Assembly (NCBI GenBank): GCA_944321185.1
Contig: CALUKH010000002.1
Span: 146,941-210,940 of the forward strand
From: an uncultured Alistipes sp.
GTDB taxonomy: Bacteria; Bacteroidota; Bacteroidia; Bacteroidales; Rikenellaceae
Length of the DNA stretch: 64,000 nt
Reading direction: 5' to 3'
Part shown: one piece after another, positions 25,300 to 43,991 of the stretch
Layout: each line of letters opens with the position of its first letter
Numbering within the stretch: position 1 is the stretch's first letter
Translations under genes and position numbers: made by a program
Notes under the pieces: model-generated
What the model saw: the letters and a program-made list of their open reading frames with translations, nothing else
Databases searched by the model: none
What the model was told of the DNA's origin: nothing

Positions 25300-25731
25300 A
25301 TGGCTGTAAAATACTTTACCGACGACTGCCGGTACCGCTATCCGCAGAAGCGGCTCACGGCACAATGGCTTCGCGAGGTGGCCCGCGCCGAGGGCTATGA
25401 ACTGGGTGATGTCTGCTACATCTTCTGCTCGGCGCAACGGTTGCTGGAGATGAACCGGCAATACCTCGGCCACGACTATTACACCGATGTCATCACCTTC
25501 GACTACAGCGACCGCAAGGGGACGCACATTGTCTCAGGCGATATCTTCATCGATGTGGAGACCGTTGCGGACAATGCGCGGCAATACGGTGCCACGACAC
25601 TGCAGGAGATGCGCAGGGTAGTGGTCCACGGGGTACTTCACCTTTGCGGGCAGAACGACAAAACGCCCCGCACCAACGCCCAAATGCACCGTAAGGAAGA
25701 TAAATACTTGAAATTCTGGGAGAAACAATGA
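25300..25731 (+). CDS. ybeY: YbeY rRNA maturation endoribonuclease
   Basis: Single-domain metal-dependent RNase of 143 residues, involved in 16S rRNA 3'-end processing. The family segments LNRQYLxxDYxTDVITF (here [19 protein letters not shown]) and [11 protein letters not shown] are present. The metal site reads [11 protein letters not shown]: the third histidine of the usual H-x3-H-x5-H is replaced by Asp, as is common in Bacteroidetes. The stop overlaps the mnmG start by 4 bases (ATGA), implying translational coupling. Confidence 0.93.
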
Positions 25732-27734
25732 CCCTCGATTACGATATCATCGTCATCGGCGGCGGACACGCCGGATGCGAAGCCGCTTCGGCGGCCGCAC
25801 GCCTCGGTTCACGGACCCTGCTGCTGACGATGGACATGACGAAAATGGCTTCGATGTCGTGCAATCCGGCAGTTGGAGGAGTAGCTAAAGGTCAGATTGT
25901 CAGAGAGATAGACGCTTTAGGCGGCCAAATGGGACGCATTACGGATCTCACGGCCGTGCAGTTTCGGATGCTGAACATGTCGAAAGGGGCGGCCATGTGG
26001 AGTCCCCGGGCGCAATGCGACAAGACCCGTTTCTCGGAGGAGTGGCGCCATACGCTGGAGAACACAGCAAACCTCTATATCTGGCAGGATGCCGCCACGG
26101 AACTGCTCTTCAGCCTTGCGGACGGAACTCCGCTGGAGATCGATTCAGCACCTTCCGAATCAGGTAGTGTCCAGAACAAAACAACCGACCAACCGATTGC
26201 AGAAAGAGATCCACTTATTTGCAACGAACCGACCTCCATCGCCGGAAAACGATATAAAATCCGCGGCGTACGAACCCGAATGGGGGTAGAATTCAGCTGC
26301 CGGGCTGTCGTATTGACGGCCGGGACCTTCCTCGACGGAATGATGCATTGCGGCGCAGCCCATGCCGAAGGGGGCAGAGCCGGGGATGCTGCATCGCACG
26401 GTATTACGGCCTGCCTGCAAAAAGTCGGTTTTGAAACCGGGCGCATGAAGACCGGAACTCCAGCCCGACTTGACGCAAGAACCATCCATTTCGAGAAACT
26501 AGAGCCGCAATATGGTGATGAAAAGCCCTCAAAATTTTCATTTTCACACGAAACACAACCCGTTCAGGATCAAATGCCGTGTTACCTGATCTATACAAGT
26601 CCGGAAGTTCACGCCATTCTGCGATCTGGGTTCGATCGCTCGCCACTTTTCAACGGGACCATTCACGGCATCGGACCGCGTTATTGCCCCTCGATCGAAG
26701 ACAAACTACGCACCTTTGCCGACAAGGAACAGCATCAACTTTTCCTTGAGCCCGAAGGCCGCACGACCAACGAATATTACCTGAACGGTTTCTCGTCATC
26801 GCTGCCCTGGGAAGTGCAATGGCAGGCGCTGCACAAGATACACGGGCTGGAAGAGGTGCATCTTTACCGACCGGGTTATGCCATCGAATATGACTATTTT
26901 CCACCGACGCAACTTGACCATTCACTCGAAACCAAGCGTGTTTCGGGCCTTTATTTTGCCGGGCAGGTCAACGGAACGACCGGATATGAGGAGGCAGCTG
27001 CACAGGGTCTGATGGCCGGAATCAATGCACACCGCGCATTGAAAGGGGAGGAGCCAATCGTTTTGCAACGCGACGAAGCCTATATTGGCGTATTGATCGA
27101 CGATCTGGTAACAAAGGGAGTCGACGAGCCTTACCGGATGTTTACCTCGAGAGCCGAATATCGAATTCTACTCCGTCAGGATAATGCAGACCTGCGACTC
27201 ACCCCGCTGGGATATAAAATCGGGCTAATTTCAGAGGAAAGATACGCCTATTTCGAGAAAAAACACAAAGACATTGAATCACTTGTCGACTTCTCACATG
27301 AATTAAGCGTCAAAGCCGCCGAAATTTCCGAGTATTTAAAATCGATCGGATCAGAACCTCTGACACAAGGAAGAAAGTTACATGATATTCTGATGCGAAA
27401 CAATGTAACATTTGAATCACTGGAGAAAGTACTTCCAAAGCTGCACAAGTTTATTAAATCGAATCAAATAACCCCTGAGGCAATCGAAGAAGCAGAGATC
27501 CAGATTAAATACAGAGGGTATATCGAACGAGAAAAATTCATAGCAGAAAAGTTACATCGGCTGGAAAACATACGAATACCAGAGAACTTTGATTTCTTTT
27601 CAATGAATTCATTAACGATCGAAGCCCGTCAAAAGCTAAGCCGGATCCACCCAAAAACAATAGGCCAAGCATCCCGAATTCCCGGAGTTTCACCAGCCGA
27701 CGTCAACGTTCTACTCATCAAATTCGGCAGATAA
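25728..27734 (+). CDS. mnmG: MnmG (GidA), tRNA uridine-34 carboxymethylaminomethyl-modification enzyme, with an internal insertion
   Basis: FAD protein that with MnmE makes cmnm5U/nm5U at the wobble base of some tRNAs. Recognisable are the dinucleotide fold [14 protein letters not shown] (8-20), [11 protein letters not shown] (45-54), [20 protein letters not shown] and the C-terminal [19 protein letters not shown]. At 668 residues it is about 40 longer than usual: residues about 129-176 (S/T/N/K/P-rich) interrupt the strand pair before [21 protein letters not shown]. Base use changes along the gene, from GC-rich at the start to AT-rich after about 27.2 kb. Confidence 0.95.
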
Positions 27735-27737
27735 AAC

Positions 27738-27753
27738 AGTTCCACGTGGAACA
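27738..27753. other. parS-like site 1
   Basis: AGTTCCACGTGGAACA contains the perfect 14-base palindrome GTTCCACGTGGAAC; 15 of 16 bases match the known parS form TGTTCCACGTGGAACA bound by ParB. It begins 4 bases after the mnmG stop codon. Confidence 0.75.
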
Positions 27754-27773: not shown

Positions 27774-27789
27774 TGCTCCACGTGGAACA
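27774..27789. other. parS-like site 2
   Basis: TGCTCCACGTGGAACA, 15 of 16 bases matching parS; 36 bases after site 1 in the same intergenic region. Confidence 0.75.
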
Positions 27790-27885: not shown

Positions 27886-28899
27886 TTAGAGTACAATTGT
27901 GCACCAGCCATATTTATCCTCAGCACGGCCATACTGAATATCCTGTAAATCGGTATAAAGTTTCATACAAGTCTTACCAACTTCGTCTCCATACCTGTAT
28001 TCAGCACCCGTCTGCATATCATAAATATAGCCAATAGGGGAGATTACGGCAGCAGTACCGCAGGCACCGCACTCCTCAAAAGTCGACAACTCTTCGACCG
28101 GAATATGGCGTTCTTCTACCTCGAGACCCATATCACGAGCCAACTGACGAAGACTTTTGTTCGTGATCGAAGGCAGCACGGATTGGGATTTCGGAGTAAT
28201 ATATTTACCATCCTTGATGCCAAAGAAGTTTGCAGCGCCACACTCCTCAATATACTTATGCTCGGCAGCATCGAGATACATGATGTTCGAGTAGCCCATT
28301 TCATGACCTTTTTCACCGGAGAGGAGGCTGGCAGCATAGTTTCCTCCGACCTTGACATCGCCTGTTCCACGTGGAGCAGCACGGTCCTGTTCCCGGTCAA
28401 TGGCAACACGAATCGGTTTGATACCCGATTTGAAGTAGGCACCAACCGGCGAGCAGTAGACAATAAACAACGCATCCTTGGCAGGCTTCACACCCAGACC
28501 GGCCGTCGTACCGAACATCACAGGACGAAGATACAACGAAGCTCCCGTGCCATAGGGCGGAATGAAACGCTCATTGCGCTTAACAACCTCGATGCAGGCA
28601 TTAACGATCATCTCCTCCGACGGAACCGGCAGGCAGAGACGTTTTGCCGACGATTGCATACGACGTGCATTCTCCTCGACACGGAAGAGACGCACCTTGC
28701 CGTCAACACCCCGGAAAGCCTTCAGACCTTCGAAGAGCTCGACCCCATAATGCAGACACGAAGCCGACATGTGCATCTGGATATACTCATCCTGCGTGAC
28801 AATCATGTCGCTCCACTTACCGTCGGTGTAGACATAACGGATGTTGTAATCCGTCTTGCGATAGTCGAAACCAAGCGCACTCCAATCCGTATTTTCCAT
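27886..28899 (-). CDS. ilvE: Branched-chain amino acid aminotransferase
   Basis: PLP enzyme of fold type IV, 337 residues, catalysing the last step of Leu, Ile and Val synthesis and its reverse. Recognisable are LHYGVELFEGLKAF, LYLRPVMFGT, the Schiff-base lysine K183 in GDVKVGGNYAAS, EECGAANFFGI and the C-terminal TAAVISPIG. The ATG is at 28897-28899. A TATTTTTG box at 28930-28937 lies between it and the metG stop, so it has its own promoter. Codons for residues about 174-179 (AAPRGT) contain a parS-like sequence. Confidence 0.96.
   Translation of the reverse strand: MENTDWSALGFDYRKTDYNIRYVYTDGKWSDMIVTQDEYIQMHMSASCLHYGVELFEGLKAFRGVDGKVRLFRVEENARRMQSSAKRLCLPVPSEEMIVNACIEVVKRNERFIPPYGTGASLYLRPVMFGTTAGLGVKPAKDALFIVYCSPVGAYFKSGIKPIRVAIDREQDRAAPRGTGDVKVGGNYAASLLSGEKGHEMGYSNIMYLDAAEHKYIEECGAANFFGIKDGKYITPKSQSVLPSITNKSLRQLARDMGLEVEERHIPVEELSTFEECGACGTAAVISPIGYIYDMQTGAEYRYGDEVGKTCMKLYTDLQDIQYGRAEDKYGWCTIVL
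28363..28378. other. parS-like site 3, inside ilvE
   Basis: TGTTCCACGTGGAGCA, 15 of 16 bases matching parS, embedded in coding sequence about 590 bases from site 2. Confidence 0.65.
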
Positions 28900-33857: not shown

Positions 33858-34799
33858 TCAACGGATGGCAATCATGTTGCGGATCGAGCGTTCGGCGGCG
33901 CGGCGCACCTCCTCGTCGATCTGAATCTCGGGTGCCTCGTTCTCCAGACACGAGCAGATGTTTTCGAGCGTCACCATCTTCATGTAGCGGCAATTGTTGC
34001 AACCGCAGGTCTCGTCGTCGGGCGGCGCCGGGATGAACACCTTGTCGGGATAGCGCTTCTGCATCTCGGCCAGGATGCCGGCCTCGGTCACCACGATGAA
34101 CTCGCGGGCCTGGCTGCGGCCGCAGTAGTCGAGGATTCCGGCCGTCGAGCCCACATAGTCGGCCACCTCGACGATATAGGCCCGGCACTCGGGGTGAACG
34201 ACCACCTTGGCATCGGGGTGCTGACGCTTGAGCTGCAGGAGTTTCTCGAGCGAAAACTCCTCATGCACGTGGCAGGCGCCGTCCCAGATGACCATGTTCT
34301 GCCGTCCGGTGAGCTTCTGAATATAGGAACCCAGGTTGCGGTCCGGGGCGAAGATCAGGGGCTGGTCGGCCGGCAGCGATTCGACGACCTTCAGGGCGTT
34401 GGACGACGTGCAGCAGATGTCCGTCAGGGCCTTGACCTCGACCGTCGTATTGACATACGAGACGACCTTGTAGCCGGGGTAGCGGGCCTTGAAGGCGGCA
34501 AAATCACGTGCATCGCACGATTCGGCCAGCGAGCAGCCCGCCTCCGGGCAGGGGATCAGCACCTTCTTGTCCGGGCAGAGGACCTTGGCCGTTTCGGCCA
34601 TGAAGTGCACGCCGGCGAAGAGGATGATCCGCGCATCGACCTGCTGGGCCTGGACCGAGAGAGCCAGCGAATCGCCCAGGAAGTCGGCCACGGCCTGCAC
34701 CTCGGGTCTCGTATAGTAATGGGCCAGGATGACGGCCTTCTTTTCGCGTTTGAGCGCCTCGATGCGGCGGGCGAGTTCAGCGGAGTTATCGACGTTCAT
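33858..34799 (-). CDS. nadA: Quinolinate synthase A
   Basis: 4Fe-4S enzyme of 313 residues that condenses iminoaspartate with dihydroxyacetone phosphate to quinolinate, the second step of de novo NAD synthesis. Family blocks include AVILAHYYTRPEVQAVADFLGDSLAL, GVHFMAETAKVLCPDK, CCTSSNA, WDGACHVHEEF, HPEC and GCNNCRYMKMVTLENI; the three cluster cysteines are in VLCPDK, the HPEC region and GCNNC. nadB and nadC are not in the window. ATG at 34797-34799; upstream is the long AT-rich gap proposed below as an origin. Confidence 0.95.
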   Translation of the reverse strand: MNVDNSAELARRIEALKREKKAVILAHYYTRPEVQAVADFLGDSLALSVQAQQVDARIILFAGVHFMAETAKVLCPDKKVLIPCPEAGCSLAESCDARDFAAFKARYPGYKVVSYVNTTVEVKALTDICCTSSNALKVVESLPADQPLIFAPDRNLGSYIQKLTGRQNMVIWDGACHVHEEFSLEKLLQLKRQHPDAKVVVHPECRAYIVEVADYVGSTAGILDYCGRSQAREFIVVTEAGILAEMQKRYPDKVFIPAPPDDETCGCNNCRYMKMVTLENICSCLENEAPEIQIDEEVRRAAERSIRNMIAIR

Positions 34800-35184
34800 T
34801 TTTATTTTTATTCCTTTAATAATTTTTAATAAATAAGAAGAAATATAATAGCTGTTGATACTGTTTACAAGTTGCCTCGTAAAATTTCTATCAACACCGT
34901 TCGTTGTTTTTTCTTCCTGAATGTCGTTTTTAAAGCTTTGATTTTGCGGTGACAGGATAAATAATCAACAAATGTTGACAACGGTTTTCGACATTTCAAC
35001 ACTCCGATTTTTTCAACATCCGATTCCATTTCCGACCGAAAGGAGGCTGTCACAACTTTTCATAAAAAATTTTGTTTTCCGGGAATTCTTGTATATACCC
35101 TGCCCGATTTTCGAAAAGCAAATTTTTCGGCCCCTGATTTTTCATTATTTTTCATCGGTTGTTAAACCGGTTGTCGACAGCTTG
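34800..35184. other. Candidate chromosome replication origin (oriC)
   Basis: A 385-base AT-rich gap between nadA and mrp in an otherwise GC-rich stretch. It holds six 9-mers ending in TCAACA: GTATCAACA (34853-34861, minus), CTATCAACA (34888-34896), TAATCAACA (34962-34970), TTGTCAACA (34973-34981, minus), ATTTCAACA (34993-35001) and TTTTCAACA (35010-35018). They resemble DnaA boxes (TTATCCACA) with A for C at position 6. The left end is nearly pure A/T, suitable for unwinding. Genes left of it mostly run left and the next ones right run right. No dnaA is in the window. It could instead be only a long nadA promoter region. Confidence 0.5.
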
Positions 35185-36237
35185 TCAACCGTTTTTCATC
35201 ACTTTGCTGACAATCTTTTCCGCAATCTCCCGGTAGCGTTTTTCGACTTCGGGATGCGTGGCCGTAGCCGGGCGCCCCTCTTCCGAACCCTCCATAATCG
35301 ATTGAATGATCGGTATTTCGCCCAGGAAATCCACCCCGCTCTTTTCGGCGTAGGCACGTGCCCCGCCCCGTCCAAAGAGGTAATAGCGGTTTTGCGGCAG
35401 CTCGGCCGGGGTGAACCACGCCATGTTTTCGATGATGCCCGCCACCGGAATGTTGACATTTTCGTTGCGGAACATCTCCACGCCGCGCACCACGTCGGCA
35501 ACGGCCACCTGTTGCGGTGTGGAGACGATCACCGCCGCATCGATCTTCAGTTCGCCGATGATCGACAGATGCACGTCACCCGTTCCGGGGGGCAGATCGG
35601 CCAGCAGGAAGTCCAGCGTCCCCCAGCGCGTCTGGTGGATCATCTGCTTCAGGGCGCTCACGGCCATGGCGCCGCGCCAGAGCAGCGCATCGGTCGGTTT
35701 GATGAAGAAGCCGATCGACATGAGTTTGATGTCCATCGATTCGGCCGGGACGATGTGTTCGGCGCCATCCTCCTCGACGGCTTCGGGCATGTACCCCTCG
35801 ACGCCGAACATTTTGGGTTGTGAGGGTCCGTAGATGTCGGCATCGAGGATTCCGACGCGGAAACCCATGTTGCGCAGGGCGATGGCCAGGTTGGCCGTGA
35901 CGGTCGACTTCCCTACCCCGCCCTTGCCCGAGGCCACGGCGATTACCTTGGCGATACCGCCCGTGGTGGTCGAGAGTTTGGGTTCGGGACGCGGTGCGGC
36001 GCCCCCCTCCTTGATGACGACGAGGACCTCGGCCCCCGGGAAAGCCTCACGCAGCAGGCTTTCGGCCTGGTTTTTGATCTTCACGGCAAAGGGGTCGCGC
36101 GGCTTGGCAAAGCGCAGCACGACGGTCACCTTTCCTTCGGCCGTAGCCAGGTGTTCGATAAAACCGCTCGAGACGATATCCTTGCCCGTTTCCGGGTGGA
36201 TGATCGTGGCGAGCAGCTGTTTTATTTTTTCTTCCAT
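35185..36237 (-). CDS. mrp: Mrp/ApbC P-loop iron-sulfur carrier
   Basis: Cytoplasmic ATPase of 350 residues that holds and delivers 4Fe-4S clusters. An N-terminal MIP18/DUF59-like domain (1-85, HPETGKDIVSSGFIEHL) precedes the P-loop domain: deviant Walker A ASGKGGVGKST near 104-114, GILDADIYGPSQP, LADLPPGTGD. The usual CxxC near the C-terminus is not evident here (region NMAWFTPAELPQNRYYLFGRGG), which is worth noting; many Mrp proteins carry it there. ATG at 36235-36237, after a TATCTTTG box at 36262-36269; the upstream in-frame TTG at 36264 falls inside that box and is rejected. Confidence 0.93.
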   Translation of the reverse strand: MEEKIKQLLATIIHPETGKDIVSSGFIEHLATAEGKVTVVLRFAKPRDPFAVKIKNQAESLLREAFPGAEVLVVIKEGGAAPRPEPKLSTTTGGIAKVIAVASGKGGVGKSTVTANLAIALRNMGFRVGILDADIYGPSQPKMFGVEGYMPEAVEEDGAEHIVPAESMDIKLMSIGFFIKPTDALLWRGAMAVSALKQMIHQTRWGTLDFLLADLPPGTGDVHLSIIGELKIDAAVIVSTPQQVAVADVVRGVEMFRNENVNIPVAGIIENMAWFTPAELPQNRYYLFGRGGARAYAEKSGVDFLGEIPIIQSIMEGSEEGRPATATHPEVEKRYREIAEKIVSKVMKNG

Positions 36238-36261
36238 AAATGCTGTGGGTGTTACTTTTTG

Positions 36262-36269
36262 CAAAGATA
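36262..36269 (-). promoter_or_regulatory. -7 box of mrp
   Basis: TATCTTTG on the minus strand, 24 bases before the ATG. It faces the sppA promoter across the operator at 36309-36327. Confidence 0.65.
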
Positions 36270-36308
36270 ACGCATATTTTCAGCTTTAAATATATTGTGC
36301 AAATTTAT

Positions 36309-36327
36309 TTTATCGAAAAACGATAAA
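36309..36327. promoter_or_regulatory. Palindromic operator between mrp and sppA
   Basis: TTTATCG-AAAAA-CGATAAA, the same 7-base arms and 5-base spacing as the site at 12507-12525. It lies 27 bases before the sppA -7 box and about 40 bases before the mrp -7 box, so it could act on both. Confidence 0.6.
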
Positions 36328-36354
36328 TTTTATTTGTTTTTCGTAAAAGATACG

Positions 36355-36362
36355 TATCTTTG
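36355..36362 (+). promoter_or_regulatory. -7 box of sppA
   Basis: TATCTTTG, implying a leader of about 100 bases before the ATG at 36470. The leader has a run of eight G. Confidence 0.65.
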
Positions 36363-36469
36363 CAAAGGAGCGACCGGGGGGGGAAACGGAGGACTCCCCT
36401 GCGATCGGAATCCGCGGCGGCTGCGGTCGCACTTCTTCACCCGTTGAATATTTGTTAACAATCGCGCAT

Positions 36470-41933: not shown

Positions 41934-42560
41934 TCAGAAGGAGATACCGACGCGCAGACCGAAGTTGTTGAGGTTGTTGACGCGATAGACCAGCACGTCG
42001 CCCTCGTTGGTGGCGTAGTTGTAGTAGAGTGCCACGTGGAACCCCATGCGGTAGTCCGGACGCGGGAAGATCGAGACGCCGACCTCGGGCGAGAGGTAGA
42101 ATCCCCACGTCTCGGTGTACTGACGCACGACGTAGTAGTAGGACGAGAGTTCGGCGTAGCAGGCTCCGAGCTTCAGTCCGACATAGGGCTGGAAGACGCT
42201 GTCCGTTAACCAGTTGTAACGGCTCGTCACGCCGAACGGCAACTGGAACAGCGCATGTTTCTGATTGGTGGTCAGGGCGGCGCCGTCGCCCAGATCGAGC
42301 GTCTGACGGTCGATGCTCTCCAGGTTGGTCTGATACGAGAGGAAGGGACCCACGGTGATGGCCGGCGTGACGAAGTAACCGCCTTCGAAGTTCATGCCCC
42401 ATCCCGAGGTCTTGTCGGCCAGACCGTTGTCGAGGGGGACGCCCATCTGCCAGTCGACGTTGATGTAGGTGTTGGGGATCAGCTGCGCTTTGCCCGGCAG
42501 AGCGGCTGCCAGCAGGACGATGCAGCATGCAAGGGTCTTGAAGTATTTCGATGTTTTCAT
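41934..42560 (-). CDS. Outer-membrane beta-barrel protein (small, porin-like)
   Basis: Protein of 208 residues with a signal peptide (1-24: MKTSKYFKTLACCIVLLAAALPGKA, then Q). The mature part is an alternating amphipathic pattern with many Y, F, W and G and ends in GLRVGISF, with a C-terminal aromatic residue as needed for barrel insertion. It fits the 8-stranded outer membrane beta-barrel family (OMP_b-brl). No specific function. ATG at 42558-42560. It lies 26 bases after the DUF4136-like lipoprotein gene, so the two are probably cotranscribed. Confidence 0.8.
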   Translation of the reverse strand: MKTSKYFKTLACCIVLLAAALPGKAQLIPNTYINVDWQMGVPLDNGLADKTSGWGMNFEGGYFVTPAITVGPFLSYQTNLESIDRQTLDLGDGAALTTNQKHALFQLPFGVTSRYNWLTDSVFQPYVGLKLGACYAELSSYYYVVRQYTETWGFYLSPEVGVSIFPRPDYRMGFHVALYYNYATNEGDVLVYRVNNLNNFGLRVGISF

Positions 42561-42586
42561 GGTCGGATGTTTTTTTGAGGATGGAA

Positions 42587-43228
42587 CTATTTGGTCAGAT
42601 AGGGCGACTGGGCGAAGGCCTGGTCGACGGCGTCGATCGTGCGCTGAAGGTTGAGTTCGGAGTCGGAGGTGAGCAGTCCGCCGATGTAGCTGTCCCAGAT
42701 GACGGGGAGTTTGCGACCGGTCTCCTGATCGGCCTCCAGGTTGAGCATCTCCATCAGCAGCGAGCCGGCCGTGTAACCGTAGTAGACGCTGTAGGGATAG
42801 TGCCATCCGATCCAGTTGCCCCAGTATCCGGGAGCCCAGTAGTAGGGATAGTACCACCACCAGTAGGGGTTGTTGTAGCCGACGAAGTAGGTCACCTGAC
42901 GCACGTAGCTGAGCTGCAGACCGACGTTGGCGGCCTCTTTCTCGTCGATGCGCAGGTAGCCGGCGTTGTTCATCTGTGCGGCCACGGCGTCGACGATGGC
43001 CAGGGCATCCTCGTCCTTCCAGTATTCGGTCTTGTCGCTGTTCCCGATGATGAGGATGCTGTCGGGGAGGTAGTAGGTGCCGATCGAGGAGAAGTCGGTA
43101 CCCGAATCATGGGCGGTGTAGACCAGATAGTCCCGGTTGAGGTCCGACGTCGAGGGGTCTTTCTGGCACGAGCAGAACGCAACTGCGACGAGTGCGAACG
43201 CAATGTAACGGAGTTGTTTGACGTTCAT
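42587..43228 (-). CDS. DUF4136-like lipoprotein
   Basis: Predicted lipoprotein of 213 residues: the signal MNVKQLRYIAFALVAVAFCSC ends in a lipobox with Cys21. The sequence after it (DLNRDYLVYTAHDSGTDFSSIGTYYLPDSI and IVDAVAAQMNNAGYLRIDEKEAANVGLQLSYV) follows the DUF4136 pattern. A very aromatic stretch (NNPYWWWYYPYYWAPGYWGNWIGW) in the middle is typical of this family in Bacteroidetes. Function unknown; an envelope location is likely. ATG at 43226-43228. No clear -7 box is visible, though the folE terminator upstream implies its own promoter. Confidence 0.85.
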   Translation of the reverse strand: MNVKQLRYIAFALVAVAFCSCQKDPSTSDLNRDYLVYTAHDSGTDFSSIGTYYLPDSILIIGNSDKTEYWKDEDALAIVDAVAAQMNNAGYLRIDEKEAANVGLQLSYVRQVTYFVGYNNPYWWWYYPYYWAPGYWGNWIGWHYPYSVYYGYTAGSLLMEMLNLEADQETGRKLPVIWDSYIGGLLTSDSELNLQRTIDAVDQAFAQSPYLTK

Positions 43229-43318
43229 GATGTTTTGATTTTTGGTTTGCTGTCGGCACAACCCCAAATTTCGTTCCCGCGTGTCGGGAAAATGCCGCTC
43301 CGGGCCGAACGGCACATG

Positions 43319-43355
43319 AAAAAACCGGAAATCCGCAATGAAGGGATTTCCGGTT
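43319..43355 (-). terminator. Terminator of folE
   Basis: A perfect 12-base-pair stem AACCGGAAATCC / GGATTTCCGGTT with a 9-base loop; U-rich on the minus-strand 3' side. Confidence 0.9.
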
Positions 43356-43382
43356 GTGGCAAACGGACCGAAACGGGGTCTG

Positions 43383-43991
43383 TTAGCGATACTTGTGCGA
43401 GATGAGGGTCATGAACTCCTCGCGCGTGCGGTGGTCCGAGAGGAAGATGCCCGTGAAGGCCGAGGTGGTTGTTGCGGACTGCTGCTTTTCGATGCCGCGC
43501 ATCTGCATGCACATGTGGCTGGCTTCGATCACCACGGCCACGCCCATCGGGCTCAGCGCCTCCTGGATGCAGTCGCGGATCTGTACCGTCAGCCGCTCCT
43601 GGACCTGCAGCCGGCGTGCGAAGCACTCCACCACGCGGGCGATTTTCGAGAGTCCGGTGATGTATCCGTTGGGGATGTAGGCGACGTGGGCCTTGCCGTA
43701 GAAGGGCAGCATGTGGTGTTCGCAGAGCGAGTAGAGTTCGATATCCTTGACGAGGACCATCTGTTTGTACTCTTCGCGGAAGGTGGCCGAGCGGATGATC
43801 TCGAGCGGGTTTTCGTCATACCCTTTCGTGAGGAACGACATGGCCTTGGCCACCCGTTCGGGGGTTTTCAGCAGACCTTCGCGGGCGGGGTCCTCGCCCA
43901 GCAGCCGCAGGATTTCGGTATAGTGGTGTTTGAGGGCCTCGATGGTTGCCGCATCGAAGCGTTCCTCCTTTTCATACAGTGTTTTCTCCAT
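43383..43991 (-). CDS. folE: GTP cyclohydrolase I (FolE)
   Basis: Zinc enzyme of 202 residues that turns GTP into 7,8-dihydroneopterin triphosphate, the first step of folate and of queuosine (with QueD) synthesis. The core reads [53 protein letters not shown]; zinc ligands are Cys and His in CEHHMLPF and the later Cys in SHMCMQMRG. The chosen ATG (43989-43991) lies only 7 bases after the TATCTTTG box (43999-44006), so the mRNA would be almost leaderless; a longer reading from 44051 would start upstream of the promoter. Confidence 0.96.

Follow-up and report, generated by a model that had tools for sequence, protein, structure and literature searches.

The DnaA box of Escherichia coli reads TTWTNCACA, with C at position 6, in the available text of PMC7561715 and PMC5043019. 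In the basal unwinding system (BUS) rule of Pelliciari and colleagues, as given in the available part of PMC8287927, at least three NAN trios lie within 16 bases of a DnaA box. Origins far from dnaA are common in the Bacteroidetes according to the accessible portion of PMC4755523, and the accessible portion of PMC10197239, which deals with 12 mouse gut species, describes most parS sites as clustering at the origin. We analysed a 64,000-nucleotide stretch of DNA from an uncultured Alistipes sp. (the whole stretch is called the window below) in which the gap between nadA and mrp had been proposed to be the chromosomal replication origin (oriC). The gap is very likely to be this origin. The proposal is supported at the sequence level by a cluster of putative DnaA boxes and its conservation in relatives, the layout of a conserved core, a local change in GC skew, a cluster of parS-like sites, and the location of dnaA elsewhere. 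An origin in this gap is ordinary in principle, and the widespread change of the boxes and of DnaA in the family is the part worth following. The features of the locus are collected in Table 1.

Table 1. Positions of the candidate origin, its putative elements and its neighbours in the window.
Feature	Position	Strand	Basis
oriC candidate, whole AT-rich gap from nadA to mrp	34800..35184	.	34% GC; six TCAACA 9-mers; boxes kept in relatives
AT-rich stretch beside boxes, putative duplex-unwinding region	34800..34852	.	Role suggested by place beside core
45-base conserved core: tandem pair of putative DnaA boxes, then GC spacer and T-rich tract resembling DnaA trios	34829..34873	-	Alignments A1, A2; PWM; R1 model
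DnaA-trio-like tract, middle T every third base (A on opposite strand)	34829..34849	-	Period-3 test
Downstream putative DnaA box of core, GTATCAACA	34853..34861	-	TCAACA 9-mer; core pattern
Upstream putative DnaA box of core, TTGTAAACA here, consensus TTRTCAACA	34862..34870	-	Core pattern
Putative DnaA box CTATCAACA	34888..34896	+	TCAACA 9-mer
Putative DnaA box TAATCAACA	34962..34970	+	TCAACA 9-mer
Putative DnaA box TTGTCAACA	34973..34981	-	TCAACA 9-mer
Putative DnaA box TTTTCGACA, G at position 6	34985..34993	+	Sequence; TCGACA enriched over gaps
Putative DnaA box ATTTCAACA	34993..35001	+	TCAACA 9-mer
Putative DnaA box TTTTCAACA	35010..35018	+	TCAACA 9-mer
mrp, Fe-S carrier P-loop NTPase, usual neighbour of core	35185..36264	-	Pfam PF10609
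nadA, quinolinate synthase, usual, though not invariable, neighbour	33858..34799	-	Pfam PF02445; apart from mrp in several relatives
parS-like site	27738..27753	.	One mismatch from TGTTNCACGTGNAACA
parS-like site	27774..27789	.	One mismatch from TGTTNCACGTGNAACA
parS-like site	28363..28378	.	One mismatch from TGTTNCACGTGNAACA

The nadA-mrp gap is 385 bases long and has 34% GC in a window that is mostly 55-65% GC. Six 9-mers ending in TCAACA were found in it, four on the plus strand and two on the minus strand, compared with a mean of 0.25 in dinucleotide shuffles, and none of 100 shuffles reached six. The hexamer occurs 30 times in the whole window, and the gap cluster forms its densest 300 bases. 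The gap boxes depart by one base from the E. coli consensus, and the box consensus varies between lineages. The original prediction had described this AT-rich gap and its six 9-mers correctly, whereas its listing of boxes was incomplete rather than wrong, as boxes ending in TCGACA and the TTGTAAACA box had been left out. It had also named the surrounding genes and their directions, and these were confirmed by a Pfam scan: genes for aminotransferase IV, MetG, S46 peptidase, NadA and Mrp run leftward, and those for SppA (S49), a PTPS/QueD-like protein and PolA run rightward. Among the ten window proteins scanned, the one encoded at 42551-43405 had no Pfam match. The window Mrp is 97% identical to the Mrp of a named Alistipes contig.

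Relatives of the locus were collected by an Mrp scan, which supplied 80 named loci (the best 80 of 209), and 61 genus genomes added further loci. From the resulting 113 loci we extracted 70 gaps in which nadA immediately follows mrp on the 3' side; 56 of these, the window included, were distinct, with lengths of 358-658 bases, and came from loci named Alistipes, Tidjanibacter, Rikenellaceae and Bacteroidales (L020) as well as from the genus genomes. TCAACA was the most enriched hexamer over the 56 gaps (193 occurrences versus 15.5 expected), and the second was TCGACA (118 versus 10.7 expected). Five gaps had no TCAACA, and their cores read TCGACA or TGAACA. One of the genomes (G054) carries a second, shorter mrp at C6:386144-387022 (92% to the query, residues 6-298), about 4 kb from the full copy.

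An alignment of 19 gaps showed that the end nearest nadA carries a block of strong conservation. This 45-base core contains, in order, TTRTCAACA and NNNTCAACA arranged head to tail, a short GC spacer, and a tract rich in T, with T predominating at every third base; on the opposite strand the tract is a series of repeated NAN triplets. When the window and nine sampled stretches of its own genome were scored with a core PWM, the site scored 51.3 and the next site 1.5. The tandem box pair was present as a strict pattern in 36 of the 56 gaps, always on the same strand, and the best PWM site lay on the core strand in all 56, which are the gaps on which the PWM was trained. At least three DnaA trios in one fixed phase were detected in 45 of 55 gaps, a count that rose to 50 when any of five offsets was accepted. 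The summed run length of the trios in the fixed phase was reached by none of 500 shuffled tracts. This comparison makes no correction for kinship, and the core had been placed with a PWM that included the same trio-tract columns that were tested for period 3. The features named in the BUS rule are present in the sequence: a box with three or more NAN trios no further than 16 bases away, and a tandem box pair in the same direction.

The gap also lies immediately upstream of nadA, with the core 30-74 bases from the start codon of this gene; one could therefore envisage that its sites are nadA operators, through which a repressor or DnaA controls NAD synthesis, and that the cluster is a promoter feature. 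We consider this highly improbable, because the boxes do not accompany nadA placed elsewhere. Sixteen loci without an adjoining nadA were chosen, and for 12 of them nadA was located elsewhere (11 distinct genomes, as the G048 and G068 hits coincide in place); the 600 bases upstream of each of these nadA genes hold 0 or 1 TCAACA. Beside mrp, 4 to 6 boxes are retained in three loci that lack nadA (L110, L111 and L112), although many other such loci have just 0 to 2 boxes there. In some of the genomes with nadA-less loci the core is kept beside mrp with TCGACA (G048), or lies a few kb from mrp or on a different contig (G001, G015 and G046). Moreover, control of nadA would leave the skew change and the parS cluster described below unexplained.

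The distribution of the core was examined with a sequence-only model (R1), which was built from 37 cores, partly from genomes that were later searched. The model had a single match in the window's own assembly (E 7.5e-11) and, at E 0.01, matched 56 of the 61 genus genomes, with a single match in 54; no core match was obtained in the other five at this threshold. Together with the hexamer counts above, this result upholds the predicted conservation of the TCAACA 9-mers in relatives. Fifty of the 56 best matches sit 258-607 bases 3' of mrp, on the mrp strand, and the other six comprise two that lie 1.9 and 6.2 kb from mrp on the same contig and four on contigs without a listed mrp match. A search over the order returned the window's own genome and one genome of the same family (G187, E 2.3e-9); the next best match had an E value of 2.4e-5, and the rest were weaker. 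A second paired-box match (L208, G000:C1:187575-187597) lies about 10 kb from dnaA, in 31% GC non-coding DNA with three TCRACA hexamers, and is like the core at 20 of 23 bases. The R1 model does not report it, and we regard it as probably due to chance because a reversed-pattern control for the paired-box search also gave 16 matches over the 61 genomes.

The cumulative GC-skew minimum of the window was located at 35586, inside mrp and 0.4 kb from the gap, and the T-A minimum at 33871. Outside the window, skew was read from sampled stretches. The window's own assembly comprises 42 contigs and is 79% complete; the contig of the window (C2) showed negative skew in three of three stretches to the left. 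The sign change that had been predicted at this locus was seen in the window and on contigs of A. montrealensis (negative in 7/7 stretches to the left of mrp, positive in 5/6 to the right), An66 (4/5 and 5/5) and G060 (4/5 and 4/4), and, with less full sampling, in G042 (3/4 and 1/1) and G048 (1/1 and 3/4). It was unclear in two other genomes, namely G061, where the skew is messy (negative in 6/11 stretches to the left, positive in 7/9 to the right), and G062, where the sampled stretches had no clear sign change at mrp. In G015 no flip was detected, all three sampled stretches being negative. The near flanks were read in 46 loci, and in 33 of them skew was negative on the 5' side of mrp and positive on the 3' side. 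The skew minimum lies inside mrp, outside the gap, and near a change of gene direction, and we counted this against the origin reading.

A minimum in mrp, observed in both the window and the closed chromosome G277 (see below), falls between the two gaps that flank this gene, and would also suit an origin in the mrp-sppA gap (36265-36451), between divergent genes, with the nadA-mrp gap serving only as an accessory DnaA site. That the origin lies there is very unlikely, as TCAACA is absent from 36265-36451, and several relatives that keep the mrp-nadA gap, L020-L023 among them, have an sppA match that starts some 3 kb or further from mrp. Gene direction alone could also shift a local skew minimum to the point of divergence. 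A 40-base stretch of the mrp-sppA gap (window 36307-36346) recurs at G000:C1:97022-97061 with 95% identity, and is perhaps a promoter or a repeat.

G277 is a closed chromosome of 2.78 Mb from another genus of the same family, and it keeps the order sppA, mrp, gap, nadA. Its gap (482 bases, 38% GC) holds only two TCRACA, and its core, at 1,669,366, had a PWM score of 32.2, whereas the next site in the sampled 700 kb scored 1.8. Nine stretches spaced evenly between 0.42 and 1.54 Mb were read, eight of them with negative skew, and all stretches at 2.24-2.66 and 0-0.28 Mb were positive. The cumulative curve for 1.54-1.755 Mb reached its minimum at 1,668,202, inside mrp, and this was also the lowest point of the chromosome after removal of the net trend. 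The whole-chromosome minimum, with unsampled parts interpolated, was at 1,899,117, which is 98 counts below the value at 1,668,202. We regard the two minima as tied; the stretch that separates them has skew of the opposite sign. One of the two nearly equal minima of the closed chromosome falls in mrp and the other lies elsewhere, and our confidence in the origin reading was lowered slightly by this second one. Taken over all the genomes sampled, the skew prediction was upheld in part. The segment of opposite GC skew (about 1.76-1.90 Mb, 0.1-0.23 Mb from the core) is possibly an inversion beside the origin.

Clusters of DnaA boxes also occur at datA- and DARS-type sites. The second skew minimum of G277, of equal depth and 0.23 Mb away, is what one might expect if the cluster were such a site of DnaA titration or reactivation and the origin were elsewhere. 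We judge this to be quite improbable: the cluster coincides with a skew change in several genomes, a tract of the unwinding type forms part of the core, and there is neither a second R1 site in the window's own assembly nor a second good site in the 700 kb of G277, in which the other minimum was included. An origin at dnaA was likewise considered and rejected. The 246-kb contig of the window's own assembly that bears dnaA (C1) showed positive skew in six of six stretches, without a sign change, and dnaA is about 0.91 Mb from the core in G061 and about 1.07 Mb from it in G277, where it is located at 598,849.

The nearby parS-like sites that formed part of the original prediction were borne out. 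The window's own assembly has three such sites, all within 0.65 kb of one another and 6.5-7.1 kb from the gap. In An66 they lie 6.5-7.3 kb from the core, in G277 two parS-like sites are at 1,680,866 and 1,680,910, about 11.5 kb from the core, and in G015 and G046, in which the best core match is not beside mrp, parS-like sites were found about 5 kb from the core. The mnmG (gidA) gene, identified by Pfam at 25728-27734, ends right before the parS-like cluster of the window; this gene is a classical origin neighbour in other bacteria.

If the nadA-mrp gap is the origin, DnaA would bind the box cluster and extend from the tandem core boxes (34853-34870, minus strand) onto the DnaA-trio-like tract, and the AT-rich stretch would melt toward nadA. 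The helicase would then be loaded at the melted stretch, with forks leaving both ways, and ParB would load at the parS cluster to the left and segregate the new origins.

The base at position 6 of the boxes was tallied over the T[TC]NTNNACA sites of the 56 gaps: it was a purine in 235 of 295 sites, C in 49 and T in 11. Counted as hexamers, TCCACA occurred 39 times, compared with the 193 TCAACA and 118 TCGACA given above, and TCGACA exceeded TCCACA even though G and C are about equally common. Purines are thus strongly, though not exclusively, preferred at position 6. Because the core seed pattern admitted only A or G at this position in the second core box, the 100% purine there is partly built in; the first core box, which the seed pattern left unconstrained, has a purine at position 6 in 89%, and the T[TC]NTNNACA tally was likewise unconstrained.

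We compared these boxes with the DNA-reading part of DnaA. Where domain IV of E. coli DnaA (1j1v) reads GGR-D-HTTV, the DnaA of the window's own genome reads GGR-N-HATV, with Asn at the Asp433 position. Asn was found at this position in all ten DnaAs of the first set read and in 28 of 30 family DnaA loci (15 genera; the best 30 of 54), the window's own genome being in both sets. In contrast, Asp was present in all 29 DnaAs readable from other families of the order, one per family, among loci that were the best 30 of 92 genomes with a Pfam-model match (L294 was unreadable). The two family DnaAs with Asp both belong to genus g144. In these two (L338 and L340) the recognition helix reads ERDHATVVHA and apparently has one residue fewer than in the other 28 family DnaAs. 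Position 435 is Ala in the DnaA of the window's own genome and differs from E. coli, but it is Ala in most Asp433 families too.

These sequence comparisons suggest that the initiator DnaA and the origin boxes may have changed together, although the Asp433 contact is described for box position 7 and the change is at position 6. We would give an even chance to the further proposal that the Rikenellaceae have re-coded initiation, with the change of the near-universal Asp433 to Asn in DnaA and of C6 to mostly purine in the boxes forming a matched pair that is poorly compatible with that of neighbouring families. Genus g144, with Asp433, would have either reverted or branched off early, and would offer a natural test of the matched-pair reading. 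Tandem TTATCCACA pairs, sought as indicators of box type in other families, were found in 6 of 99 genomes of the order, several of them in direct repeats. Another genome of the order has six TTATCCACA copies with 12-base spacing in 25% GC DNA (G127:C120:7270-7338). If the matched pair is real, Alistipes DnaA alone would prefer the purine-6 boxes among TTATCAACA, TTATCGACA and TTATCCACA, and an Asn-to-Asp substitution would shift the preference back. The question of how an initiator and its origin change without losing replication would then become testable with two proteins and two sets of boxes.

No description of an Alistipes or Rikenellaceae origin appeared in titles or abstracts among the matches listed, though DoriC may list one, and the available text of two articles that name Alistipes (PMC10623857 and PMC10502120) maps no origin. 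A precise origin would help to read Alistipes growth rates from metagenome coverage. Genome tools that centre on dnaA misplace Bacteroidetes origins, because these commonly lie away from dnaA (PMC4755523, available portion).

When compared with predicted Bacteroidetes origins such as that of Prevotella intermedia (PMC4755523, as far as its available text goes), the candidate is alike in having a cluster of boxes at a GC-skew transition, far from dnaA. The placement between nadA and mrp was seen, among the matches listed, only in loci named Alistipes, Tidjanibacter, Rikenellaceae and Bacteroidales (L020), and nadA was not found in the mrp flanks examined of 21 loci from other groups (L063-L083). 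The candidate shares with the B. subtilis-type oriC that has a BUS, as described in the available part of PMC8287927, two tandem boxes, a short spacer, repeating trios and an AT-rich stretch, as well as further boxes in both directions. It differs from that type in that position 6 is mostly A or G rather than C, the trios are seldom the consensus GAT, and the locus is far from dnaA. The epsilonproteobacterial origins, in the accessible text of PMC5043019, provide a likeness of another kind, as they too combine a lineage-wide shift at one box position with variation in the DNA-reading helix of DnaA. The epsilonproteobacterial shift is at position 5 and keeps the core TTCAC, whereas in the Alistipes gap and its relatives position 6 is the one that shifts, and DnaA changes at the Asp433 position itself.
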